Shown one piece after another: positions 3,396-63,463 of a stretch of 64,000 nt of DNA; the first letter of the stretch is position 1; each line of letters starts with the position of its first letter. The translations under genes were made by a program, and so were the position numbers. The notes under the pieces are model-generated. The model was not told where the DNA came from, did not search any database, and saw only the letters and a list, made by a program, of their open reading frames with translations. Location of the stretch: assembly GCF_035083965.1 (NCBI RefSeq), contig NC_089724.1, positions 14,612,910-14,676,909 on the forward strand, written 5' to 3'. The stretch comes from Branchiostoma lanceolatum. Taxonomy: Eukaryota > Chordata > Leptocardii > Amphioxiformes > Branchiostomatidae.

Positions 3396-3488
3396 CAACA
3401 ATTGTGCATGGTGCTGGTACTCTGTTTGTGTGACAGGCCGAGGATACAACAGGAGACCTGTGTGTAGCCTCACAAACAGCAGCAGAGG

Positions 3489-4567
<1,079 letters not shown>

Positions 4568-20903: not shown

Positions 20904-20975
20904 GGGGATGTAGCTCAGTGGTAGAGCGCACGCTTTGCATGTGTGAGGCCCCGGGTTCGATCCCCGGCATCTCCA
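20904..20975 (+). tRNA. tRNA-Ala (anticodon UGC)
   Basis: A full cloverleaf can be drawn. The acceptor stem GGGGATG pairs with CATCTCC (one G-U). The D arm is GCTC-AGTGGTA-GAGC and the anticodon stem CACGC/GTGTG. The loop TTTGCAT has anticodon TGC at 20936-20938. The T arm is CCGGG-TTCGATC-CCCGG, with discriminator A. There is no intron, the RNA-polymerase III A and B boxes are intact, and a T-run follows, so it should be functional. It decodes GCA and, by wobble, other Ala codons. Confidence 0.95.
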
Positions 20976-39542: not shown

Positions 39543-41474
39543 TCATTCAGAGTTTTGAGTATACAAGTTCGGTATGTTTTGCTTTACCTGTCCAGATGAA
39601 TAGACATATGAAGGATCATACTGATTCTTATCATCGATTCGGTACGTTTCACCTTCTCCACTGTGATTTACATGTCCAGCTGAATAGACATGTGAACGAC
39701 CATACTGATTGTTATCATCGATTCCGTACGCTTCACATTCTCTACTGTGGCCGGCGTTTTTACGTTGATTGACACCAAAAACATAAGGTTCAATTGTGTT
39801 GGGTGAAGTTTCATGCATGCAGGACTGACTATTATCTGAATTTGGAAACTGATTATCAATTCTGTTGTCATTGGAAACTTCTCCATTATGGTAGGTAGGT
39901 TCACAGGCCTGTGTATCTGGTCCGGTTAGGGTACTTGTACCTTCTCTTTTCTTAAGACTGGTTTTACCTGCCGTTGCAACCTCGCCAATATGATATTGAG
40001 GTACCTCGAAAACATAAGGCGACATTGCATACGGCTCAGTCGTGTTAGATTTAACCTCGTTCATGCAGGACTTTGGTGCCTGATTATCAGCCATGTCGAC
40101 GTCGTCATCAAAAATTGTATGGTTCACAGTTTCCGGACTATTTCTACAGCCTTCCTGATCATCAGTCTGGGTGTCATGACTGGTGGTAGCTTGATCATAA
40201 AAAGCGTTGTTTACAACTTGGCCAGCCGCCATGTTGTTCACGCGACCAACTGGGGCATCTGTATCATCATGTTGTTTCCCACCCAATGTGATATACACCG
40301 CTGACGCCAAACCGCAAAGAACAACGCTTACTCCAACTACTGGTCCAATCACCGACCAGACTGGTGCCGTGGTAACGGTTTGAGGAGATGACGTCTCCTG
40401 ATTCTCTGGCGTCCCTTTCATGGGTCCAGAGTGAGCATTGTACCCTTCTGTAAAGTCTGTCACCTGATTGAAGGTTCTAGCTGCTGCAACTGTCAAGACA
40501 ACGTTAGTAGTGTTTTGAGAAATCTGATCATATGTTTCAGCCTGTTGTAGTTTTGGTTCCTCACTCCGTGGTTCTGAACTACCATTTGCTAGTGACAACA
40601 GGGACGAAGTGGTGACGTCATAGGGACTAAGGGTTTGACGTTCTGTAGGGCAGAAACTGTTGGGATCACAGGACTTTGGTGTGAACAGTCGACTATTCTC
40701 GCCGTTTGCATCCCAGACTTTATAACAAACTGAGATATATTCACTTAACAACTGGAGCTCTACGTTCTCCACTACAGCTGGTGTTTTACAGCGGAACAAA
40801 GGCTGGTTATCATATATGGCGCGTGCCACATTATTATTCCTGAGGAAATTTACGCATTTTGGTGATCTTTTATCCCGGCACTTTCCTGCAATGATCGCGA
40901 AATCAATGAGCCAAACTAAGTTACAGTCACAGTGGAAAGGGTTACCCGTTACGACATTTCTGTGTAGTACAATACGTCCGTTTGGCGCATGCGCGTCCCA
41001 CCCAAGATCGCACAGAGACAATGTCGTCAAAATGTTGTAGGAAACGTCAACCGTTTTCAAGTTGTGTAAGAAAAACTTCACAGGGTAGAGGTTGACACAG
41101 AACAGCTGATTATGTGACAAGTCCAAATGAACTAGCATGGGCAAGTTCTTCAGACAGTGCCAAGGGAAGTAACTGATGCTATTGTTTTTTAAGATCATGT
41201 TGTTCAAGTAGGGGAGGGGCGCAATGCATGGAAATGTGGTCAGGGCGTTGTTGGGAAGATGGAGGTCAACAAGTGTTTTTGGCAGTTCTTTGGGAAAGTT
41301 CGTTAAGCCTTTGTTGTTACAATATAGCAAACGTATATCACTGTTATTCCAATTTTGAACGACACATCCTTTAGATAGTAAGCGTGAAAGTGCCGATGCT
41401 TCCCAAGTGAACGGTACGTTCAGAAATGGGAGGACCGACACCAGAACGAATATTATGCTGTGTTTGTATCGCAT
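39543..41474 (-). CDS. single-exon leucine-rich-repeat transmembrane receptor
   Basis: A type I membrane protein of 643 residues encoded without introns. A signal peptide covers about residues 1-28. A Cys-containing N-terminal cap is followed by about four to five LRRs (roughly 46-165; HLPNNAL, LDLSHNQL and VDVSYNIL are typical cores). The LRRCT cap (178-230) begins NPFHCDCNLVWLIDF. A Ser/Thr-rich stalk leads to one membrane segment (about 373-396, SVIGPVVGVSVVLCGLASAV). The 245-residue tail lacks TIR, kinase or Ig domains. It is acidic and rich in Asn, with many tyrosines (SPYVFEV, EPTYHNGEV, IEPYVFG). It ends in two tandem copies of a 28-residue unit (581-608, 609-636) with cores IDDNNQY and IDDKNQY. 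The extracellular part presumably binds ligand or cell-surface partners, and the tail may be phosphorylated; both are inferences. Lancelets have many intronless LRR receptors. It is not a Toll-like receptor. Confidence 0.9.
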   Translation of the reverse strand: MRYKHSIIFVLVSVLPFLNVPFTWEASALSRLLSKGCVVQNWNNSDIRLLYCNNKGLTNFPKELPKTLVDLHLPNNALTTFPCIAPLPYLNNMILKNNSISYFPWHCLKNLPMLVHLDLSHNQLFCVNLYPVKFFLHNLKTVDVSYNILTTLSLCDLGWDAHAPNGRIVLHRNVVTGNPFHCDCNLVWLIDFAIIAGKCRDKRSPKCVNFLRNNNVARAIYDNQPLFRCKTPAVVENVELQLLSEYISVCYKVWDANGENSRLFTPKSCDPNSFCPTERQTLSPYDVTTSSLLSLANGSSEPRSEEPKLQQAETYDQISQNTTNVVLTVAAARTFNQVTDFTEGYNAHSGPMKGTPENQETSSPQTVTTAPVWSVIGPVVGVSVVLCGLASAVYITLGGKQHDDTDAPVGRVNNMAAGQVVNNAFYDQATTSHDTQTDDQEGCRNSPETVNHTIFDDDVDMADNQAPKSCMNEVKSNTTEPYAMSPYVFEVPQYHIGEVATAGKTSLKKREGTSTLTGPDTQACEPTYHNGEVSNDNRIDNQFPNSDNSQSCMHETSPNTIEPYVFGVNQRKNAGHSRECEAYGIDDNNQYGRSHVYSAGHVNHSGEGETYRIDDKNQYDPSYVYSSGQVKQNIPNLYTQNSE

Positions 41475-41554
41475 GTTTTCCGCAGCGACAAAAGCTAAAT
41501 TGTTTTAAATCCAAAGATTTCTTGTTATCCCTTGCTTATAGTCTGTAACTAAGG

Positions 41555-45646: not shown

Positions 45647-46869
45647 GTCAAGGACCACTTGCCTAATGTGACCAATTTTGGTGGTCTCTAAGATAATGTT
45701 TTCAATTCATTGACGCAAGCATCAAGATACCTCCCTACAGAGACCATCTGTTCACAAACATCTCATCTTACAAGTGGCTGGATAGCATGTCCTTTTCATA
45801 CATGATAATGCGACTCTTTGTATCCAACAGATTTTCCATCCGCAACGTGTCTCTACAAAAAATGTGGATTGAATCCTCCAGCTCTGCAAGACCAACAAAA
45901 ACACTCAGATGTATGTCTTCGTTTGTATAGCTTTGGCTTACATCCTGAAGGTGTTTCAGCAAGTTCTTTTGAATTGTATAAACATTCTTAGCGTATATTT
46001 GAATGGACATCATTCTCACTGCAGCGGTTGGGTAAGTGTTGGAGAGACTCAAACTTGCTTCTCCTTTGTGGCATAACATGTAAATTGTGTTTTCTTCTTG
46101 TAGAAGCTTTAAGTTAGCGGGGCATAAAGTAAACGGATCCCAGTCTGCAAATATGACTGGTTTGCGGTCGTAGCCACCACAGACGCCAGCGGGAAGCCAT
46201 TTCTGTACCGCCGTACAGAAGTCGTCATCTGGGTCTTGTAGAGGCACGACGTCCGGTAAGCCGGTCGTGTCCAGTTGAGCCAGCTGAGCAGGGTTCTGTC
46301 GCCACCAGAGACTGGGTCCTCCCTTGTACTCTGCGTAAGGCTAGAAAAGGAAATCTCACCTTAAATCAAGGTTTGCTTTTGAATTCAACGGCGCTTAAAT
46401 TGTACTTTGTACTTTGTTTTAGAGAAATGTATGTATAAACGTCACAGAAGTCATTTTTAAGTAATCCGTTACGTAAGTGGAATAATTTTCGTATTTGGCT
46501 ATTAATTAAGACTTAAGATATTTTTTAGCTAATTTACTGTATTCTAGAGAAAGAACTATAACACAACGTATAACTTAAACTCTCTATGATTTAGACCTAC
46601 CATGCTAAAAACTTCTCGCATGCCATGGATTGGTGCGTTCGCGATCGCCAAGGTGTTGAGGCTTGATATCGTGGCTCGTTTATACCTGGCTGTCGGGTGG
46701 TTCTGTCGGATCCAGGCGTCTTGATACTCCTCTCACTGCCAGATGACCCCCGTCTTTCTCCACGCAGAGACGACCCTTGCTGACGTGGTAATGAACGCCT
46801 TTTCCCCCTCCGTGATAATTGCAATTAACAGTCCTACCTATTAAAGAAAACACAGGCACTTGAAAATGC

Positions 46870-48180: not shown

Positions 48181-48399
48181 TACTGAAATGGTAAGTTGTA
48201 ATCAAAACTCACACACCACTTGTTTTCCCACCACCGTCAGGAACATCGTGGTGTCAAGATGATCAATGAAGTGGTGAAAGAACGCTGGCATGTAGTCTGT
48301 GTCGCCATAGATGCCTTTAGACATGCGTATTACAGCGTCGTAATCATCGTGCGAAGCAAGACGAAATGACGGATGCAAACTTTGTTCTGCCATTATCAA

Positions 48400-49260
48400 A
48401 GAACTGGTTGGGGGTGGGGGGCGGAACTGGTTGTACTGCAGCTTGTTGTCCTCATTTGCACCCCGATAAATGCCCCGTGCAAATGGTTTGAAGCAGTGAA
48501 ATGCCTAAATGGAGCTATTCTTTGTCCATGATGAGTGGCAGCTGTCTTGTGACCGAATAAAAGTGTCCCAGAGCGGTGTCACGGCCGGTTCTGTTGTACA
48601 CTCACCGCCGAAGATTCAGCGTGCCGTCACGCACTTCTCAGGTCAAGGGTCAAGTTTAAAGTTCGGCTTTAATACATTGTGCTTGCCAGGCCTGCCATGA
48701 AGCGTCACGTTAACCGGTGATAGCCTGGCTTCAAATATGAACAAATATTGCTTATTGTCATAGAGGTATTGTTTTCGGTGTGTCTGTATGTGTGTTTAGC
48801 TGTTTGTGTTTCCACATATTTGGCGCGGCAGTAACTTAAGAAACAATGGATGGATTGCAGTAATGTTAAAGAGATAGGTAGGTAAAGGTAATGGTTGGTT
48901 ATAGGCCACCTGGCGGCCTTCCTTTGTTCTACAGTTGACCTATGGTTTTGTATCTTTTGCCCTGGACATGCTATTGGAAATGGTTATCTAGTGGCGGATA
49001 GCCTTTGATGTCAGGAAAACGTGGTAGAGGTTTGAAACTCCTAGCAGTCTGCTCTTGAACTGCAGCGGTGCTTCTGATAAACTCTTTGAAATGGGAAGAC
49101 TGAAGAGAGGATCTACAGATTTACATGATGTTATGCATGCAACTATGCAAATAAAGGTCTAGTTTGCATAATGACTGCGAAAGCACCGTAATTCCAATTC
49201 TGAGTGGTAGGTGGAAATTGTATTCGTGGGACATGTGTAACTTAGCTAACGTAGCATGAC
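48400..49260. repeat. 5' flank of the left duplication unit
   Basis: This flank matches 53090-53725 in order and orientation: 'aactggttgtactg', 'gtcaggaaaacgtgg.agagg', 'tatgcaaat' with 'tttgcataatg', and 'tgggacatgtgtaact'. The duplicated unit therefore includes about 0.6-0.9 kb of upstream sequence and probably the promoter. No separate gene is seen. Confidence 0.7.
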
Positions 49261-51276: not shown

Positions 51277-52393
51277 TTACAAGTGGCTGGCTAGCATGTC
51301 CTTTTCATACATGATAATTCGACCCTTTGTATCTAACAGATTTTCCATCCGCAACGTGTCTCTACAAAACATGTGGATTGAATCCTCCAGCTCTGCAAGA
51401 CCAACAAAAACACTCAGATGTATGTCTTCGTTTTTGTAGCTTTGGCTTACTTCCTGAAGGTGTTTCAGCAAGTGCTTTTGTAGGGTAGAGAAATACTTAG
51501 CGTATATTTGAATAGACATCATTCTCACTGCAGAGGTTGGGTAAGTGTTGGAGAGACTCAAACTTGCTTCTCCTTTGTGGTCCAATATGTAGATTGTGTT
51601 TTCTGCTTGTAGCAGCTTTAAGTTAGCGGGGCATAAAGTGAACGGATCCCAGTCTGCAAATATGACTGGTTTGCGGTCGTAGCCACCACAGACGCCAGCG
51701 GGAAGCCATTTCTGTACAGCCGCACAGAAGTCGTCGTCTGGGTCCTGTAGAGGCACGACGTCCGGTAAGCCGGTCGTGCCCAGTTGAGCCAGCTTAGCAG
51801 GGATCTGTCGCCACCAGAGACTGGGTACTCCCTTGTACTCTACATAAGGCTATTAAAAAAGATAAAACGTATCTTAAGTCAAGGTTTGCTTTTGAATTCA
51901 ACGGCTATTGAAATTGTACATTTTAGATTGGTTTAGAGAAAAACGTCACAGAAGTCATTTTGTAAGTCATTTGATACTGATAAGTGGAAACAGTTGTCTC
52001 TGACTATTTTATACTCAGGAGTTAAGCCTTTTTCCAGCTAACTTACTGCAATTCTGAAAAAGAACTGTAGCTCTACGTATAATATATAATTATCTTGATA
52101 CTGTGGACCTACCATGCTGAAAACTTCACGCATGCCATGGCGTGGTAAGTTCGCCAAGGTGTTGAGACTTGATGCCGTGGCTCGTTTATACCTGGCTGTA
52201 GGATGGTTCTGTCGGATCCAGGCGTCTTGATACTCCTCTAACCACCAGACGACCCCCGTCTTTCGCCACGCAGAAGCGACTCTTGCTGACGTGCTAATGA
52301 ATACCTTCCCTCCCTCTGTGATGATTGCAATCAGAAGTCCTACCTAAGAAAACACAGGCACTTGGATATGCATGCGTGTATGTGTATGTGTAT

Positions 52394-52742: not shown

Positions 52743-53087
52743 CACCTTACGAGAGTCGCTTTTGTTGCGTCAATAAAGATTTCTTTAAATGAGCGCTTCT
52801 CTTGTCATTTTGTGACACCCCTCTGAACCATTTGAACCATCAAGTTTAACCTCGGTACTAAGGCCGGGTGTGGTGGCGATGCTGTAATAATACGTTGTAA
52901 TCAAACTCACCACTTGTTTTCCCACCACCGCCAGGAACATCGTGGTGTCAGGATGATCAGTGAAGTAGTGAAAGAACGCAGGCATGTAGTCTGTGTTGCC
53001 ATAGATGTCCTTAGACATGCGTATTACAGCGTCGTAATCATCGTGCGAAGCAAGACGAAAAGACAACTTCGAACACTGTTCTGCCAT
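51277..53087 (-). CDS. NAT16/histidine N-acetyltransferase-like protein, intact right copy
   Basis: Predicted 326-residue GNAT-family acetyltransferase, probably cytosolic. Exon 1 52911-53087, exon 2 52113-52343, exon 3 51277-51849; both introns are phase 0 (donors GTGAGT and GTAGGT, acceptors TTAG and ATAG). Exon 1 holds the N-terminal GNAT half (FRLASHDDYDAVIRM, then IYGNTDYMPAFF, the most characteristic motif of the NAT16/HISAT family). Exon 2 holds the acetyl-CoA-binding region: ARVASAWRKTGVVWWLEEYQ corresponds to the R-x-x-R-x-x-G-V loop, though the family's usual RGxG is changed to RKTG. Exon 3 has the family-specific C-terminal half (GGYDRKPVIFADWDPFTLCP). Vertebrate members make N-acetylhistidine from histidine and acetyl-CoA. 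The substrate here is unknown. The gene is a tandem duplicate of 45768-48393. Start at the first ATG (53087), matching the other copy. Confidence 0.85.
52401..52488 (+). repeat. TG microsatellite in intron 1 of the right copy
   Basis: About 44 TG units, almost uninterrupted, preceded by TGTATG units. It lies in the same place as the shorter run at 46870-46913 of the paralogue, so one ancestral tract has changed length since duplication. Confidence 0.95.
52661..52739 (+). repeat. AC microsatellite in intron 1 of the right copy
   Basis: About 39 AC units follow 'agtctagcaaag', a sequence also present at 47365-47378 in the left copy. Together with the TG tract at 52401-52488 it could form a long intronic hairpin. 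Confidence 0.95.
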
Positions 53088-53089
53088 AT

Positions 53090-53725
53090 TGGATGGCGGT
53101 AGGGGTCGAAACTGGTTGTACTGGTTGTCCTTAATTGACCTTAAAAATGCCCCACAGCTGCGTTACAGCAGCGAAATGGAATTGTTCTTTGTCCTGGGTG
53201 AGGGACAGAGACTTCAGCTGTGTCAAGGCCGTTCTGTTGTAGCAGTTGGAGTCAGTGAATACATTGTGCTTGCCCTGAAGTGTTACTATAACCGATGATA
53301 GCATGGCTTGAAATATGAACAAGTGATTCAAATATTTAAAGGTCAAGGTTGATTATGGGCCACCTGTCGGCTTCCCTTGGTACGGCAGCAGAACGTCCGG
53401 TCTATGTATCTGTTGTCCTGGACATGCTTCGGCCTTGATTATTTAGTGGCGGACTTGAGGTCAGGAAAACGTGGAAGAGGTTTGACCCCCCTGGCGGCCT
53501 GCTTTGGAACTGCATAATTGATGAGGATATTCAATAATTCCAGCGTTTTCTATGATAGGACGTCAGTATATAGCGATCTTACATGTATGTTAAAGCAGTA
53601 ACAATATCAGCAGATGTCAATTATGCAAATGAGGGCCTTATTTGCATAATGAATGCAAAAGTACCGTGATTCCTGAGCACTAAATAATAGGAATTTCATT
53701 CTTGGGACATGTGTAACTAAGTTTA
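53090..53725. repeat. 5' flank of the right duplication unit
   Basis: Counterpart of 48400-49260. It contains the inverted pair TATGCAAAT (53622-53630) and TTTGCATAATG (53641-53651), also kept in the left unit at 49144-49173. The sequence 'catccaat' stands directly before the start codon of the intact gene. Confidence 0.65.
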
Positions 53726-54612: not shown

Positions 54613-56520
54613 AGATATTAAATATCAAAAATATATCTTAATATTATATTAATCTATCAATATCATATCTATGAATATCATTTTTTCTATTTTTTCTATT
54701 AATAAATAAGAAATATTTTATATTTGTTATTTTTAAATATTCATTTAATATATACAAGGCCTTTGTCTTATGAACAGGACTTCATAGATTCCAAACCCGG
54801 CATTCGAATTTTTATGTTCATTGTAATGGAAAATACCGTGCAGCGGCTCCTATGCGCGGTAAGATGATTCTTGCAAAACACTCGCCACTAAACTTCTATC
54901 CCCGATGTAAACAGAGGCTCTTGATGTTGTTTGCAAAACAGCGATCCTTTGTTATAGTACCAAATGCTCCATTGCTCAGTATCGACTTCATTCAGACAAC
55001 ACGGACGTGGAAAGTGACGCCGCTCGGCACAAAAATATGGGAATTTTCATGAATTTTAGCTAAATTATCCAGGAAATTAAGGAAGAAATGTTGTAAATGC
55101 GGAAACCAGAATAATAGGGATGAGGTAGCTTTTAATTGGTTTGAACATTTTAGATAGAACCTTAGCTGTTATGAACTTCTCTTTCACTTAATTACCATAG
55201 TGCTGATGATTCAATGGTGCTTTTTCAAATTTTTTGTTTTATTGCGTGCCATGTACATAATTACATTGATAGCTTTTATAATGAGCCTATTGTAGATTTT
55301 AGAAATAAGTACAAGTTGTAGGCCAAGACCAGCTTTTTCAAAAGCACTTAAGTTAAGTGACGTAACTTCAAAATTGCTTTCCCCAATCTGCCTTCTTCTA
55401 TTAAAACAGTACTCCTTTCCCAAAATGACAATTTTTTTTATAGACTCAATAGCCCTTGAGTGACTTTCTCTGGCAGATTTTACTTCAAGAAAAGGGAAAA
55501 GACAATTCACACTCATAAACGTAGCCAAAACGCCAGCTTTTTTGAAAAGCACTTGTTTCCATATCGCGATTATGACATGGTACGTGTAAAACTTCATCTG
55601 GATCTGAGTATCAATAATTAAATTTAATTAAAAATCCCAAGTATCATGTAAAGAGGCAGGTGATTGCTTGGTGCATTCTGGACGGAAGGGCGGTGACCAT
55701 TGTCCACTCACGTGTCCAGTGAGTGACCACGCGAGGTTGCTGGTTGGGAAAACCCCGCTATATAATATATATATAACTCTCAAACTGACGTCGACGTCAT
55801 GATAACGGCTTTAACTGAAGCCACGCGTGATGGGAAATGGCCACACAATCAGCCATATCATAATCCATCCTCTTTCCGCATTTCAGAATAGCGCAGCGAC
55901 TGTATCGATAACGTTAACAAAGGAGAAAAACTGCTATGAAAATTGAAATGGATATGGGCGTAGCATACACGTGCAGAATTCACGATGGGGATATTAGTCC
56001 GTTTTTCGAGGAAGAGGCGTGGAACCAAACGTATCATTGGTGAGCCCTTTGAAGTCTGATACATGTGACCTGTCACGTGACGGCATGGCACGACGGATGA
56101 CAAAGTATTTTGTCCTCTACGAGTATCTTTTATAAACAGAGATATTCAACAAGTTTGTTTTGACAGAACATTACAGTGGTAATTGAGACGTTTTAAATCA
56201 AACGAATTATTGTTAAAAAAAGACGTTTTCCCATTTAATGATAAACGATGCCTGATTGTATAGCAGATGATTATTGCATTTTGTTGGGAGGAAAATATCT
56301 GAAGAAACAGACGTTGGAATTCTTTAAAGTCATAAACATTCCAATCTAGTTACGTGAGATGCTGCTCCTGGAAGTCCCAGCGACCACACCCAACAAGTGA
56401 ATGTACAAACAAGGAAAATCTACATGTTTTTTTTATTAGGTGATCTGTATGACGTAATCGAAACACTCATTTTTATATTCTTTTGGGTCTTTTTCCAGTA
56501 GTTTCGTTAAAATGTTACTA
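54613..56520. other. AT-rich intergenic DNA, nothing recognised
   Basis: Very AT-rich from 54610 to 54760. A minus-strand open frame of 128 codons at 55211-55597 has no domain and AT-driven composition. A TA microsatellite lies near 55761-55773. Confidence 0.4.
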
Positions 56521-56524
56521 AAAA

Positions 56525-56586
56525 CCAATGAGTCAAAAAGTTTTTTTTATAGAAAAATGCATCTTTTCAAATAATTTGTATAAAAA
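56525..56586 (+). promoter_or_regulatory. promoter of the first cytokine-like gene: CCAAT, AP-1, TATA
   Basis: CCAAT (56525-56529) overlaps a perfect AP-1/TRE site TGAGTCA (56529-56535), and TATAAAAA follows (56579-56586). A transcription start near 56610 gives a noncoding exon of about 50 bases ending at the strong donor CGA|GTAAGT (exon end 56662). The intron 56663-57141 then joins it to the exon carrying the start codon through TTTTCTTCAG. A kB-like GGAAGTCCC lies at 56370-56378. The downstream paralogue has the same plan. Confidence 0.6.
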
Positions 56587-57144
56587 CGGCATGGCAAGCT
56601 GAATGTGCATACTGTCTTCGACATTTTCTAGATCGATCCAGTTCAACAACCACCACCAACGAGTAAGTACTGTACATTCAGGCTTAGAATTTAGATAAAA
56701 CCACAATTTTTGTAATCCTTCGGGTACCGCTACATAACAACAGCGCCAACGAGGCCTTGAAGTAGTTTTTTTTCTATGTACTTTTTTATGCGGCGGATTT
56801 TCTAAATTAATGTGGTGGTCTTAGGGTACTCGGTGGAATTTTGAGGCTACATAAGTTACGAGCCAGAAGTTTTACGCTACAAAAGTAACATAGATTTAGA
56901 TCTACGTTATATTGTGTTTTAATGACAGACTCAATTTTACTGTAGCCCTTAATAAAAGTGTAACATAGGTTGGTGTTATAACAGGAAAACATGATGTTGG
57001 CTAGGTTTTTTATTTTATTTATAGGTTTCAGCCACAAAGGAAAAAGAATTGTGAAAATTTCTTTTAAAGCTGAAATAAAAAAACGTGCTTGCAAATAATA
57101 AGGAACAAAAATTATGATTACATATCCTCGCTTTTCTTCAGATC

Positions 57145-59345
57145 ATGGCCTTCATCAGAGCATACCTGGTCTGTATCATTCTTCTTGCCATCGGAGCTTC
57201 GTCGTCCGAGTTCGGGCGTTTCCGGCACCGTTTGCGTCATCTTCGTGCGGCTTCGCTGGTCCTGAGGGATGCTGCAGACGATACGTTAGACAGCGCGAAG
57301 GAGAACTATGTGAGTCCAACTTGCTTTGTACTCGTCTGTACTCGTCTTCGAAATGTCTGAAAATGTAATCGGCATTTCATTGACAAATGTATCAAAAGTA
57401 ACAAAGTTTATCAGAAAGGTAAGCTTAAAACACATGGAAGGATCTTTCATTATCAGAGAAGATTGTCGTCATATGTATGTTGAATAGACTATTAATATAT
57501 CTTTTTCACTAACTTTTTTAAACATTCTGCTTTATATGGCTATTAGTAGAAAATTCTGCGGTGTTTCTTCTGGTTTCTTGTTATCAACAAACATAAGCAA
57601 CCCCTCCCCTTGAAGGAATTCACAAAGATATGACCTCTTTCTTGCCGGAGACTTCCTCCCTTCTGCGAAAAACTTTCCTTCCACGAATCGGAGGAACTAA
57701 TGCGGTGAACTAACGCACGACATACGTGGTCATTCATGCCTTCTTATGTAACACCCATGGCAGGACATACTATCCCGCCGACTGACCTAAACACAAAGAA
57801 AGTGAACCAGAACAATAAGAGGAGGCAACCTGAGAAGCTACACATGCATACAATCGCTTGGGTAGCATAGGGCAGGGTAACCTGGAATCCATACTGTTTC
57901 AAGGCAGTTACAGTCAAGCTCTTTGGCGACAGAGCTGACATATGCATGCTCCCGACGAAATTTTGCCTCAGCCCCTCCTTAATAGTAAGACTGTTAATTA
58001 GATAAAACTCACAGTGTGGGCAAAGTTGGGATGTGGGGATATGGAAACTTGCAGTGCCGAGAAAAATCAACATATATGCACAGACACGGGAAATACATGT
58101 TCAGGGGGTTCTGAAGCATACTTATGAAAGTACCTATTTGTTCCAGTGTGCAGATGAAGAGTGCCCAGAGGGCTTCTTGCAGGGGATAGGAAACCCGCTA
58201 TGCCGACGGGACCGTGGATTCTTTAACGTTACGCCATCCGCTGAGCAGGTAAAATACTTTCACAATCCACTTGACATACTTCATTTCTTCCCATGCATAT
58301 CGTATTGAGAAACTAAATGTCCGAACAAGTTCAGTAGGGTCAGTCTAACCAACACCTGCGGGGTGAAGTGTGCATGTACAAATGTATGACAGGACGTACT
58401 GTATATGACCATTCGCTGTGTGCCTGTAAAGCTGGTGTGTTACGCCAGAGGGCGGTTGTACCGGTTGTACATCACAAATTCAGATACTTTAATCTACAGC
58501 TACAGTTGATTCATCACCATCTACTGGTTTCTGCATCTGCACTGTTTGAAATAGTTTTTAATGTATTCTTACTCATTTATGCAGTGGTATTATGGATTGT
58601 CGACTGAATTATCTACGAATGTACTGTCTATTCGAAAGTAGTAGAGGTACCAATGGTTGATATATTGTTATCGCAGATTGGTGCTGAAATCGCTGAAACG
58701 GACCTGGCGCTGAAAGTGTGGAGCTGTGTTCTGGAGCCCGTGCTTGAGGAGATGACCGGAGACGGAGAGGGAGAGACCGTCGAGTCTACAGCTAGCATCG
58801 CCTCACAGGTGGAGGCCTTGCGGGAAACGGTCAGTATGCTGAATGCTAAGAAGGCCGGTAACGACATTTTTCGTCTCGATCCAACGCAAACCATTTCGTT
58901 GCCAGTGGACGAAATTTTCCTGTTCGCAGGCGACGAAATAGTTTGTGTTGGCGACGAAAGTTACCGTTATGGGCCTTCGTGGTTTGAGACAGTTGCTGGC
59001 ATCAGAAGATAACGAACTCACGTCTACTGACATACGCAATGGGTATGGTATTGATAATGTAGTATAGTATGTGATTTTACCTATTCTAACCCTTTTGTGT
59101 CTTACACCGACGAAGTGCAGTAATGCCTAACATATCGTCCTGACGTGCCTCGTGAGATTTCGCAAAGTTTCTCAACGAAGTTCCGTCATCTTGTTTTTCA
59201 GATGGAGAGCATGGGTCTCCCACAGGCGTTCAACGATGCCCCGTGCAGCCTGGTACTCCTCCAGGCCTTCAAACGTCACGCCGAGACCTTAACTGATCAA
59301 GTAAACGTCATGGTGACAAGCATCAACCCGCATGCGCAGAAGTAA
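57145..59345 (+). CDS. secreted four-helix cytokine-like protein, complete gene
   Basis: Coding exons: 57145-57309, 58147-58248, 58677-58829 (preferred end) and 59202-59345, all joined in phase 0; about 187 residues. Residues 1-20 are a signal peptide (AYLVCIILLAIGASS). A long helix follows (about 26-55, RHLRAASLVLRDAADDTLDS). Exon 2 is a short Cys-rich link with C56, C61, C74 and an N-glycosylation site NVT at 82. Exon 3 holds a helix around 92-115 (TDLALKVWSCVLEPVLEEM), an acidic loop and a third helix (IASQVEALRET). Exon 4 holds MESMGLPQAFNDAPC and a last helix (SLVLLQAFKRHAETLTDQVN). Signal peptide, helix spacing, size and phase-0 introns are those of class I/II helical cytokines; the order recalls CNTF/CLCF1/cardiotrophin. 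That assignment is inference, as overall similarity is low. An alternative exon-3 donor exists (CAG|GTGGAG, end 58808). A paralogue starts at 63275. Confidence 0.7.
58428..58475 (+). repeat. dispersed repeat, copy 2 ('aagctggtgtgttacgcc')
   Basis: Matches 41708-41755 through 'aagctggtgtgttacgcc', 'agggcg' and 'taccgg'. It lies in intron 2 of the cytokine-like gene and shortly after its end shows 'cagatac', a trace of the TACAGA tail. Confidence 0.55.
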
Positions 59346-59392
59346 ACTGCAGTCATCACGTCATTGAATAGCGTTGCCCTAGAATTGTTTTA

Positions 59393-59494
59393 GTTTTACA
59401 TTGGATGTAGTTTTATATTGGATGCAGTTTTAAGTTGGATGCAGTTTTAGATCAGTAGTAGTTTTAGATTGGTTGCAGTTTTGTATCTGTTATA
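59393..59494 (+). repeat. six tandem 17-bp units in the 3' UTR
   Basis: Six units in exact 17-base register (59393, 59410, 59427, 59444, 59461, 59478), each starting GTTTT, with consensus GTTTTAGATTGGATGCA. They lie just after the stop codon of the cytokine-like gene, inside its predicted 3' UTR. They could influence mRNA stability or be neutral. Confidence 0.85.
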
Positions 59495-59822
59495 GTTGTG
59501 ATTAATCCATCAGAAGTTCATGCATTATAGCCTATTGAAGGAGTGGTTTGGCGGCACCACGCTATAAATGTATCCACTGTACAAGTATAATGTTAAAGAT
59601 TTAACGTATCGTCTAGGCCTACCGTAGAGTCATGACGAATGCATAAATGTAGCCGTAAGAGCGGAAGGTATTTAGAAACATCCAACACGTTTTCTAACAT
59701 ATTTGAAGATCTTTGTTACTTTGTAGGTTCTATGAACCATATAGTGTCCATTTCTGTCAGAAATGTAATATGTTTGTCCCATTGGACGTCCTAGCTTGCT
59801 ATCACGCATCATGATTTTCGAG

Positions 59823-59828
59823 AATAAA
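59823..59828 (+). promoter_or_regulatory. poly(A) signal of the first cytokine-like gene
   Basis: AATAAA 478 bases after the stop codon, the first canonical signal, so the 3' UTR is about 0.5 kb. Confidence 0.55.
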
Positions 59829-59849
59829 GAGTGCCATTAACGAAAAAGA

Positions 59850-61135
59850 ATTTGAGTGTTTCTGAATTAAATGAAGCTGATATGGCATGAAGTGGTGGGA
59901 AGTGCTACACGGAAGAACACGCATTGCCTGCACACAATGATATAAATGTACTTAATATGTTAGAATTGCAGATATTGCAGAGAATGGTTTGATACTGTTG
60001 GAAAGGATAGCTGCCAGCAGTGTTGCTTATGATAAATGTACGTCCACTCCGAGTCGTGACTTGGCTGAGACTGATGTAGGAACAGGTGGGTCCCTCTTCT
60101 TTATTTGGTATAATTCGTAGCACGCGTCCTACTCACTATGTGGTCTACTGAGAACATAGTTTCTATCTCCCACAATACTGTCTTTTAGTATAGGTAAGAT
60201 CCGGAACACTGTCACACGTTTTGGATACAGAAGGGACTTGCTATAAATATATGGTATCAATTAGACTGACTCATGGTGAGAGCTTGACAGTAAGAGATAG
60301 GATTTAAGGTTTTTGTCCGACAAACATTCCCCATATTTACTGGGGCAAAGACGTGACCATACGAGGGGCAGCTAAATACCTGAGGAGCAAGAATGGAGTG
60401 AAGTGACGGCAATTTGTAGTCTTTCACATTTCTCCTACGGCCGCCCTGAATTAATTTTATGGATGATATCCATGCATATGCGTGCACCGGTTTTGACGTG
60501 TTTTTTAAACAAGGAAATCATTGCCTCTATACGGGCAAATGGAAGATTAGGGTTGTGTACCTATCAACACCTGTTACTAGTGGATACAGATACGCAAATA
60601 CACAAGAACCGTCTCCAAGACGAGAATCGCATGAACATTAGCCATGTAAATCCTCATATAAAGATGATTTTATGACCACGAAATAAACCACAAACAAAAG
60701 ACTGCTGTTTATATGTTTAACCAACATGCAAAAATTGGATAACCTTGTATAGGTCCATGGCCAGGTCCGGATATGTTTTAGTTACACAGCATGTGTACCT
60801 AAAAGTGAATCGGAACTTTTTTCTCGTATAAGCCACAGTGCTCTGTTCTGTATTCCTTCCTTCTGACTCACGCCGACGAACATTATATTACATTATATTA
60901 CATTATCCAGCAGCTGTGACATGGACGTTCACAGCAACATGGTTACCAAGAACACGGGTGTGGCTACATTCTGGAAACGGGTGTGGCTACATCCTGGATA
61001 CGAGACACACAAGGTCAAACAGGAAATACACGGGGTCACGTGACGTCAAAATCTGTCGTAAAAGCTAACAGAATCACATGCGTGGCAGTGTCGTTAGCCT
61101 CGTAACCCAGGTGAATTCAAAACATCTACAGTTGC
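59850..61135. other. intergenic, nothing recognised
   Basis: No gene. A short 'attatattac' triplication lies at 60884-60905, and 'gtgtggctacat.ctgga' occurs twice between 60958 and 61000. Confidence 0.4.
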
Positions 61136-61140
61136 AATGG

Positions 61141-61336
61141 CCTCATGCGTTAAAGAGGGTTCGCTGTGTATGCGGCAAGTTGCAGGTTTGATCCCGAAGA
61201 CTTTAAAATGGTACATAAATACTGCAATATCTCTTCAGCACTCAGCACGTATGGGCGAATGGTAGTTAAACATTGACCACTGCCAGTGAACTCACCCCAT
61301 CAGCCCCCTGTTGTAGTGCTTGCACTGCTGTGTAAC
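61141..61336 (+). mobile_element. tRNA-derived SINE, family D
   Basis: The head 'gcgttaaagagggttcgctg', then 'tgcggcaagttgcaggtttgatccc' (in part) provides A- and B-box-like sequence. The body 'actttaaaatggtac', 'cagcactcagcacgtatggg' and 'cttgcactgctgtgtaa' matches a SINE I know as frequent in lancelets. It occurs once here, so the limits are approximate. Confidence 0.5.
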
Positions 61337-61504
61337 CATTGACTACAGAAACACTGTTGGGCACGTTATGATGTTGGAAGGACTTTAACATAACATAACT
61401 AACGGAGCCATGACATTTTACACCCCTCTACTTCTTGTGTGTTGGTTTCTCATTTGCCTCTCAAAATGTATGGATGAATGACTGAATGAATGAATGAAAA
61501 ACGA

Positions 61505-61775
61505 GTCACAAACTGCAAACGTGTACCGTAAGACATTGGTCATGGGAACGTATGGGCCTAAGAATTTGGCCAAACAGACTGGGTCAACCCTACTCTTCTC
61601 GATAAGTATGTTGGGACCTTTAATGTGCAGAGATTTAACGCCTGAGGATTCCCCATACACGATACCAAATGTCTTAACGTCCCCTCCGAAGGACATCATG
61701 TTTGCTGATGAAACTTCTTACATCCATGCCCGAGCGGGATTCAACCCTTCGTCTTTCGGGAGTCAAGCAAGCCTT
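61505..61775 (-). mobile_element. SINE family C, minus-strand copy
   Basis: On the minus strand a B-box-like 'gggttgaatcccgctcggg' is followed by 'cttcggaggggacgttaag', 'gcgttaaatctctgcac' and 'tatcgagaagagtaggg'. The last blocks recur at 50978-51140. The long open frames on both strands over this element have no recognisable domain. Confidence 0.5.
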
Positions 61776-62680
61776 TGGCGTACATTTCTAAAGATATTTC
61801 ACAGACAAAGAACCACACACATTGACCAATAGATATAGATAACCATTTCATGTATTTTCTTATCGTGATAGAAGTGGGAACGTCCCTTTTCCATCCACCA
61901 TAATGTAAAAGATGGTAATGATGGTAAAACTAATGCTGATGCCGTTGTTGAATCTATGCGTGGGTGGCACACGCCTTAACATTCTTACGGTAACGCCCAT
62001 CGCGATGGTCATGATTCAACATTTCAAAGGGATACAGGAATAAGGTGTGGTTTAGGGGCTATAACGTGGCAGTTGCTTTAAGAACTCAGAGTTACATCAT
62101 TAACAACGTGACGTTCCTACCTCGTGACATGGTCTGTAAGGTGTGGTTTTTCGTCACGCCACAGTTTTAAGAACACGTGGTGCCGTGAGCGTAGCAAACA
62201 ACAAGGGGATAGCCCGTTAAATCCTGAAGAAATCCCTGATAGTGTTATTTCTTGGAGTCTTACTTTCTTGTGTTAATTACGGATTAATATTTATGACTAG
62301 ATAAAAACAATACATTGTTAGTAACATCGTTTGCAAGTGTTGTCCGAACATTTAGATTTTGAGTCTCGTGGACAACTATGTTAACTACCTTGGTTAACTA
62401 CAGAAGAGTGCGACGACCACAACGGCAGTCTAGCAACAGAACCCACTAGACTGTTACCCTTTGAAAAGAGAACAACAATGGTAGCTGAAACTAGATACAG
62501 ATAGATTTGTGTATAGTAGCGCGCGTGACGTCCTAATTACCAGGTATAAGCATTGTAAACGTTAACTACATCATCAACTGAATGCCAACAACAACATTTA
62601 AGTTAAAACTCAATTAGATCAGCAAAAAAGGTGCTATCATATAAATTCTTTGCTACTTTACGTTCACATTCGATAATGTG
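61776..62680. other. upstream region of the second cytokine-like gene, nothing recognised
   Basis: No gene. 'ggtgtggtttaggggctat' and 'ggtgtggtttttcgtcacgcc' (parts) recur about 90 bases apart near 62044 and 62138, hinting at a small duplication. Confidence 0.35.
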
Positions 62681-62681
62681 A

Positions 62682-62761
62682 GCTTTTCTGACAGTCACAT
62701 TGCTTTTATGAGAGTCAAATGGCTTTTCTGACTGCCAAATTGCGTATCTGACGGTCAAATC
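62682..62761 (+). repeat. four tandem 20-bp units upstream of the second cytokine-like gene
   Basis: Units start at 62682, 62702, 62722 and 62742 in exact register; the first is GCTTTTCTGACAGTCACATT. They share the core TCTGAC.GTCAAAT with a few changes. The array ends about 165 bases before the TATA box, so it may be a promoter element. The first cytokine-like gene lacks it. Confidence 0.85.
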
Positions 62762-62814
62762 ACAAGAGGACGTTTAATATTGTTTTTCAATTTCCTGTAT
62801 TCCACGTGCTCTAT

Positions 62815-63005
62815 TGAGTCATTCCGTGTACTGTATTTTTCCGTAGCATGGCAGCGGGCAAAATACCTGAGCTAACGTGTGCTAAAAATGGAAACATCTT
62901 TTCAGCCAATTATCCCGTCGTTCTTATAAATAAGGGCTCAAAAACGGTATTTCACTCAGAAACTCTCTTGTCAGAGACCGTGTGTGGAAAGAGAAAAAAA
63001 ATCAG
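62815..63005 (+). promoter_or_regulatory. promoter and noncoding first exon of the second cytokine-like gene
   Basis: AP-1 site TGAGTCA (62815-62821), CCAAT (62906-62910) and TATAAATA (62925-62932). An initiator-like TTCACTC puts the start near 62954. The noncoding exon (about 62954-63005) ends at CAG|GTAAGC. The intron 63006-63269 ends CCCTAAG, five bases before the start codon. A CACGTG E box is at 62803-62808. This repeats the plan of 56525-57141. Confidence 0.65.
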
Positions 63006-63274
63006 GTAAGCCGTCTGTCTTTCTAATTTTTCTTCTCAGTCCTTTTATCCTTACTATATTCAATCTATCATGATATCTACCGTGTGAGTGTGGTTTATCT
63101 AGTATTGAAAATATATATATAGAAAAAAGTATTTTCTAAAAGGTGTGATTTTTCAAGATGCTACCAATCCAGAGAAGCCTAGAAGAGACTGATTGCGTTT
63201 TGTTTTGTTTCTTCGAGAAATCTACAAACGAATTTTCAAATCCTGGCCGTTTTATTCTTCCTCCCTAAGCAAAA

Positions 63275-63463
63275 ATGGCCTTCGTCAAGATCATCGTACT
63301 TTTCGTGGGGTTCTTCCTGCTTGGCACCCCGGGAGCGCTGGGACATCCCAGGCCGGCGCGATCGTCCCCCGACCTGAGGGAGCGCCTGGGCAACCTGCGG
63401 GATGCTGTCGAGGTGCTGGAGACGACCGTAGACATCGCTTACAACGGCGCCAAGGATAACCAC
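63275..63463 (+). CDS. second cytokine-like protein, first coding exon (gene runs off the window)
   Basis: Partial gene: only the first coding exon (63 codons) lies inside the window. It ends AAC CAC|GTAAGA in phase 0, the same position and phase as in the gene at 57145. The signal peptide is about residues 1-23 (VKIIVLFVGFFLLGTPGALG) and the first helix about 33-58 (LRERLGNLRDAVEVLETTVD). Both proteins begin MAF and share R-x-R-L-x-x-L-R spacing and a final acidic/Asn segment (GAKDNH against SAKENY). Similar structure and a similar promoter make the two tandem paralogues, although the residues have diverged strongly. No match to exon 2 of the first gene is seen before 64000. Confidence 0.65.

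Follow-up and report, generated by a model that had tools for sequence, protein, structure and literature searches.

The long-chain class I helical cytokines of vertebrates share a gene plan in which exon 2 encodes the signal peptide and helix A, exon 3 the link between helices A and B (AB link), exon 4 helices B and C, and exon 5 helix D, with introns 2 to 4 in phase 0. In amphioxus, a type-I helical cytokine, the growth-hormone-like GHl (208 residues; accession no. KJ735508), has already been published together with a receptor-like protein, and a 2022 review mentions several more, quite divergent genes for such cytokines in the genome (PMC9010856). We report here on a 64-kb stretch of DNA, taken to be from a lancelet (the window), which near its end holds two tandem genes that an exon reading shows to be a real pair and that may encode class I-type (long-chain-like) helical cytokines. 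This interpretation is plausible and unproven; on the combined analysis we give it close to an even chance and assign the pair to no named subfamily. Because GHl is in print and more such divergent genes are mentioned, the pair would be an addition to a known kind of cytokine and no new system, and the proposal in an earlier note on this DNA that it might be a previously undescribed signaling system was too strong. The pair is not named in the open-access literature searched and may have been annotated earlier in lancelet databases.

Gene 1 is complete and lies on the plus strand, whereas everything beyond the first coding exon of gene 2 falls outside the end of the window. Their features are as follows.

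56579..56662 (+): TATA box (TATAAA, 56579) and noncoding first exon of gene 1, ending at 56662 with donor CGA/GTAAGT (GT at 56663); transcription start not fixed
57142..57309 (+): first coding exon of gene 1, ATG at 57145; 55 codons (57145-57309) for signal peptide and predicted helix A, phase 0 end
58147..58248 (+): AB-link exon of gene 1; 34 codons, opening with C-x4-C and carrying an N-glycosylation sequon, phase 0 at both ends
58677..58829 (+): 51-codon exon of gene 1 for predicted helix B and the larger part of helix C, phase 0 at both ends
59202..59345 (+): last coding exon of gene 1; 47 codons for the end of predicted helix C, a short link between helices C and D (CD link), and helix D, then the stop codon
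59823..59828 (+): AATAAA, candidate poly(A) signal of gene 1, read from the sequence
62925..63005 (+): TATA box (TATAAA, 62925) and noncoding first exon of gene 2, ending at 63005 with donor CAG/GTAAGC (GT at 63006)
63270..63463 (+): first coding exon of gene 2, ATG at 63275; 63 codons (63275-63463) for signal peptide and predicted helix A, phase 0 end

The four-exon model of gene 1 gives a product of 187 residues with all three coding introns in phase 0, as the earlier note had proposed. Its splice sites are fair: every one of the three coding donors fits 7 of the 9 consensus positions, and the four acceptors score 10 to 13 on a home-made scale with a maximum of 14. An alternative in-frame acceptor at 59226, 24 bases into the last exon, would shorten that exon by 8 codons. 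The exons have a G+C content of 0.55 to 0.59, compared with 0.40 to 0.44 in the introns. The N terminus is hydrophobic and signal-like (with as many as 10 hydrophobic residues in 12), so that, with the signal judged from hydrophobicity, the product has the size and the secretion expected of class I helical cytokines (about 150 to 200 residues with a signal peptide). Five Cys residues (56, 61, 74, 106, and 155) lie in the mature part, and the only N-glycosylation sequon is at N82; the Cys-rich AB link with one glycosylation site claimed previously is present.

To gauge how readily such a model arises by chance, we used a loose scan for an ATG exon of 45 to 75 codons with a signal-like stretch, followed by phase-0 exons of 25 to 45, 40 to 65, and 35 to 75 codons with fair splice sites. 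Across both strands of the 64 kb, it recovered exactly two signal-like first exons, those of genes 1 and 2, and the full exon chain for gene 1 only, with one alternative last acceptor. Among 400 dinucleotide shuffles (one strand each), none contained a full chain, whereas 62 had one or more such first exons and 24 had two or more, in a test that is partly circular because the scan ranges were drawn from gene 1 itself.

The two genes share the promoter plan that had been noticed earlier, each with a TATA box and a noncoding exon that ends in a donor. Their first coding exons are 41% identical over 29 residues, with a score above that of all 2,000 shuffles. Nucleotide identity at codon positions 1, 2, and 3 is 14, 21, and 12 of 29, highest at position 2, and over the 29 codons nonsynonymous divergence (dN) is 0.54 versus a synonymous divergence (dS) of 1.83. 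From these comparisons the genes are diverged tandem paralogues that have been kept as proteins.

The strongest argument for a cytokine is the gene plan: signal peptide with helix A, a Cys-rich AB link, helices B and C, and helix D, separated by phase-0 introns as in G-CSF, IL-6, EPO, and GH. In mature codons per exon, gene 1 has 37/34/51/47, compared with 35/36/49/54 in G-CSF, 41/38/49/55 in IL-6, 26/29/60/51 in EPO, and 31/40/55/65 in GH. The paired Cys residues that open the AB exon stand at positions 1 and 6 in gene 1, 1 and 7 in G-CSF, 2 and 8 in IL-6, and 3 and 7 in EPO. Exon 3 of human EPO comprises nucleotides 160 to 246, i.e., 87 nucleotides, and hence is in phase 0 on both sides (PMC5473850); in carp, human, and mouse, G-CSF genes are described with five exons (PMC6389648); and the longer G-CSF (1gnc) carries three extra residues immediately before C36, which fits an exon junction there. 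These observations support a family of secreted, probably four-helix proteins with phase-0 introns, whose exon plan comes nearer to the long-chain class I pattern (G-CSF/IL-6/EPO/GH) than the earlier note had said. The further proposition that the two genes retain an exon plan and an AB-link Cys pair inherited from the ancestor of these cytokines, predating the split of EPO, G-CSF/IL-6, and GH, appears to us unlikely, if worth stating.

The gene 1 product had no Pfam or NCBIfam match up to an E value of 10, and against PDB sequences it returned two irrelevant rows and no cytokine relative. As a control, the same Pfam search recognized G-CSF, IL-6, and EPO themselves. However, genuine cousins are nearly invisible when one sequence alone is the query (G-CSF retrieves IL-6 at E = 0.33, and EPO retrieves TPO at E = 0.49), and these negatives are therefore weak evidence. 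Pairwise z scores were computed for 20 cytokines and, as controls, 7 helical proteins that are not cytokines. The global scores were 2.34 for IFN-beta, 2.17 for G-CSF, 2.12 for GH, 1.86 for IL-10, 1.60 for calmodulin (control), 1.51 for IL-7, 1.40 for ferritin (control), 1.33 for IL-6, 0.52 for EPO, and 0.48 for CNTF, and the local scores were 5.83 for IFN-beta, 3.10 for BCL2L1 (control), 2.51 for calmodulin, and 2.14 for GH. For reference, the known long-chain pairs G-CSF/IL-6 and EPO/TPO reach a z of 5 to 7 and others mostly fall between -1 and 3, with higher-scoring exceptions (G-CSF/IL-11, 4.8; LIF/OSM, 4.6; G-CSF/CNTF, 3.8). Aligned exon by exon, gene 1 scores 2.04 with GH, 1.85 with G-CSF, 1.65 with EPO, and 0.80 with IL-6, compared with -1.17 to 2.52 for known cross-subfamily pairs and 5.22 for G-CSF/IL-6. 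Home-made profiles gave 2.6 bits for G-CSF/IL-6 (two sequences), -0.8 for EPO/TPO, -1.1 for GH/PRL, and -1.8 for type I interferons; neither these nor Pfam place gene 1 in any of the four families. The comparisons are mostly at the level of the controls, and by sequence, class I membership is neither shown nor excluded.

Family by family, the likenesses are partial. With the G-CSF/IL-6 family (Pfam GCSF, PF16647, and IL6, PF00489), gene 1 shares the exon plan with phase-0 introns and the two Cys residues opening the AB exon, and its last exon starts much as that of G-CSF does (MESMGLPQA versus MEELGMAPA; z of 3.52 for this exon). Unlike that family, it has no Pfam match, its other three exons score -0.36, 1.10, and -0.86 against G-CSF, its remaining Cys residues sit elsewhere, and it lacks the intron in the signal peptide. 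The CD link of IL-6 is also longer. With EPO/TPO (PF00758), it shares an AB exon of similar size, the tight Cys pair at its start, an N-glycosylation site, and phase-0 boundaries; in contrast, the profile score is at shuffle level, the exon-wise z is the 1.65 given above, and helix A lacks at its start a Cys that could pair with the C terminus. As for the CNTF/CLCF1/cardiotrophin group, whose layout the first reading of this DNA had thought similar, the likeness is that of extracellular four-helix bundles in general. The CNTF score lies below those of five of the seven controls (CLCF1 and cardiotrophin were outside the panel), there is no Pfam match, and the resemblance is not supported. Genes of this group also have fewer exons.

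Class I helical cytokines have four long helices running up-up-down-down, with crossover AB and CD links. Structure prediction yields four helices, as had been expected from the sequence, in a model of low confidence (AlphaFold; predicted local distance difference test [pLDDT], 51.3; predicted template modeling score, 0.48). In this low-confidence model the helices occupy mature positions 4 to 37, 69 to 77 plus 81 to 98, 106 to 125, and 137 to 163, with a long AB link, a short link between B and C, and a turn at 128 to 131; beyond helix C come a single exon and, besides that turn, a single long helix, where the six-helix class II layout has helices E and F. The first coding exon has the signal-like start and phase-0 end ascribed to it, but its helix is not demonstrably amphipathic: helices A, B, and C are at chance level (shuffle P = 0.28, 0.17, and 0.34), as is the helix of gene 2 (P = 0.12), and the periodicity of helix A peaks at 160 degrees and not at 100. 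Helix D alone is amphipathic above chance (P = 0.018). In a Foldseek search with the model, prolactin heads the list and, with growth hormone, fills rows 1, 3, 4, 5, and 8 (E = 0.18 to 0.69), none of them significant and all poorly superposed; together with the negative GH/PRL profile, this sets gene 1 apart from the growth hormone/prolactin family. CNTF appears only at row 40, with a root mean square deviation of 17.4 Å, and class II cytokines are absent from the best 50 rows.

Several points weigh against a class I-type cytokine. Gene 1 has no intron within the signal peptide, its CD link is short, and its mature product has an odd number of Cys residues. Class II genes also share the plan in outline, IL-10, for example, having exons of 55/20/51/22/30 codons. 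The alternative that survives best, which we consider possible although the less probable, is that the pair encodes no cytokine but another kind of secreted helical protein, from a lineage-specific family (for instance, a carrier, reproductive, or mucosal protein) with four helices and phase-0 introns by coincidence. The lack of any family match, the helical controls with scores comparable to those of most cytokines, the generic bundles that are the best structural matches, the short CD link, and the odd Cys count all agree with it. It predicts on its own, however, neither the exon plan resembling that of G-CSF, IL-6, and EPO nor the Cys pair that opens the AB exon.

Human IFN-beta, which tops all 27 panel proteins both locally and globally, brings in a class II cytokine of the IL-10/interferon side, e.g., an interferon-like protein with a C74-C155 disulfide. 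Its local score is reached by only 2 of 5,000 shuffles, and the alignment (CRRDRGFF... on CLKDRMNF...) runs from the AB link through helices B and C and sets C74 on a conserved Cys; the phase-0 introns, the IL-10 global score, and the 55- and 51-codon exons of human IL-10 at corresponding places point the same way. Yet the other interferons do not share the match (z for mouse IFN-beta, -0.71; IFN-alpha2, 0.41; IFN-tau, 0.80; IFN-epsilon, -0.62; chicken IFN, -0.42; IFN-omega, 2.27), and the profile of seven type I interferons, at -1.8 bits, is equaled by 263 of the 698 shuffles reported. Under stricter gap costs, 3 or 23 of 5,000 shuffles reach the IFN-beta score. The one long last helix of the low-confidence model stands where class II has two, E and F, and no class II protein is among the best 50 Foldseek rows. 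Since its relatives and the interferon profile fail, the IFN-beta match is probably due to chance; it nonetheless keeps a class II origin alive, as an improbable explanation. By eye, the contexts of C74 and C155 (CRRDRGFF and APCSLVLLQA, within 58147-59324) resemble those of the type I interferon disulfide Cys residues (CLKDR.DF and SPCAWEVVRA), and only human IFN-beta scores.

Least probable is that the pair is a paralogue of GHl, which belongs to the same claimed superfamily and, if the lancelet origin is right, the same animal group, and which the Foldseek lead of prolactin and GH and the exon-wise z to GH would suit, because GHl has 208 residues against 187, the two GHl quantitative PCR primers listed in one source (PMC5376476) have no match in the window at up to 3 mismatches (the primers may be for another species, and gene 2 is cut short), and the GH/PRL profile, compared without the KJ735508 sequence itself, is at -1.1 bits.

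The rest of the window reads as animal DNA, with spliced genes and an NKX3-like homeobox. Two tandem histidine N-acetyltransferase-like genes lie at 45768-46340 (-) and 51277-51849 (-) (Hisat_C; E = 7.9e-13 and 9.1e-15), divergent from the cytokine-like pair; open reading frames (ORFs) at 48202-48504 (-) and 52785-53162 (-), alike by eye and with no convincing Pfam match, are likely their N-terminal exons. In humans, NAT16 and EPO both map to 7q22.1. A short ORF just upstream of gene 1 (55936-56043, +; MKIEMDMGVAYTCRIHDGDISPFFEEEAWNQTYHW), with a TATA-like stretch near 55758 and GTGAGC near its end, may be another gene's first exon or may have no meaning. Farther away are a 653-residue ORF with leucine-rich repeats at 39543-41504 (-) (LRR_8; E = 9.3e-08), with a possible membrane segment by eye; a tRNA-Ala (TGC) at 20904-20975 (+), at 69 bits; and an NKX3/bagpipe-type homeobox gene at 3468-4567 (+), with its homeodomain in 4103-4567 and Nkx-3.1 as best PDB match. 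The ORF upstream of that homeodomain, in 3468-3887, has no Pfam match and contains an 11-residue stretch that we take to resemble the TN motif.

If the class I-type reading of the pair holds, the tandem paralogues would produce small secreted four-helix proteins, made with a signal peptide and with a disulfide-stapled AB link, which would signal through a class I cytokine receptor and JAK/STAT. Class I receptors are described in the sea squirt (a gp130-like and a CLF-3 receptor; PMC1963337), and CRLF3 is recorded from lancelet, sea squirt, and beetle (PMC5509957). The origin of the four-helix cytokines is open: divergence hides them, and few ligands are named outside vertebrates although class I receptors exist there. 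As cytokines, the pair would supply a concrete ligand for lancelet receptors, and its exon plan would help to date the long-chain family. Were the ancestral plan indeed kept, it would offer a direct view of the founder of that family, and lancelets would have, besides GHl, another cytokine lineage as their second.

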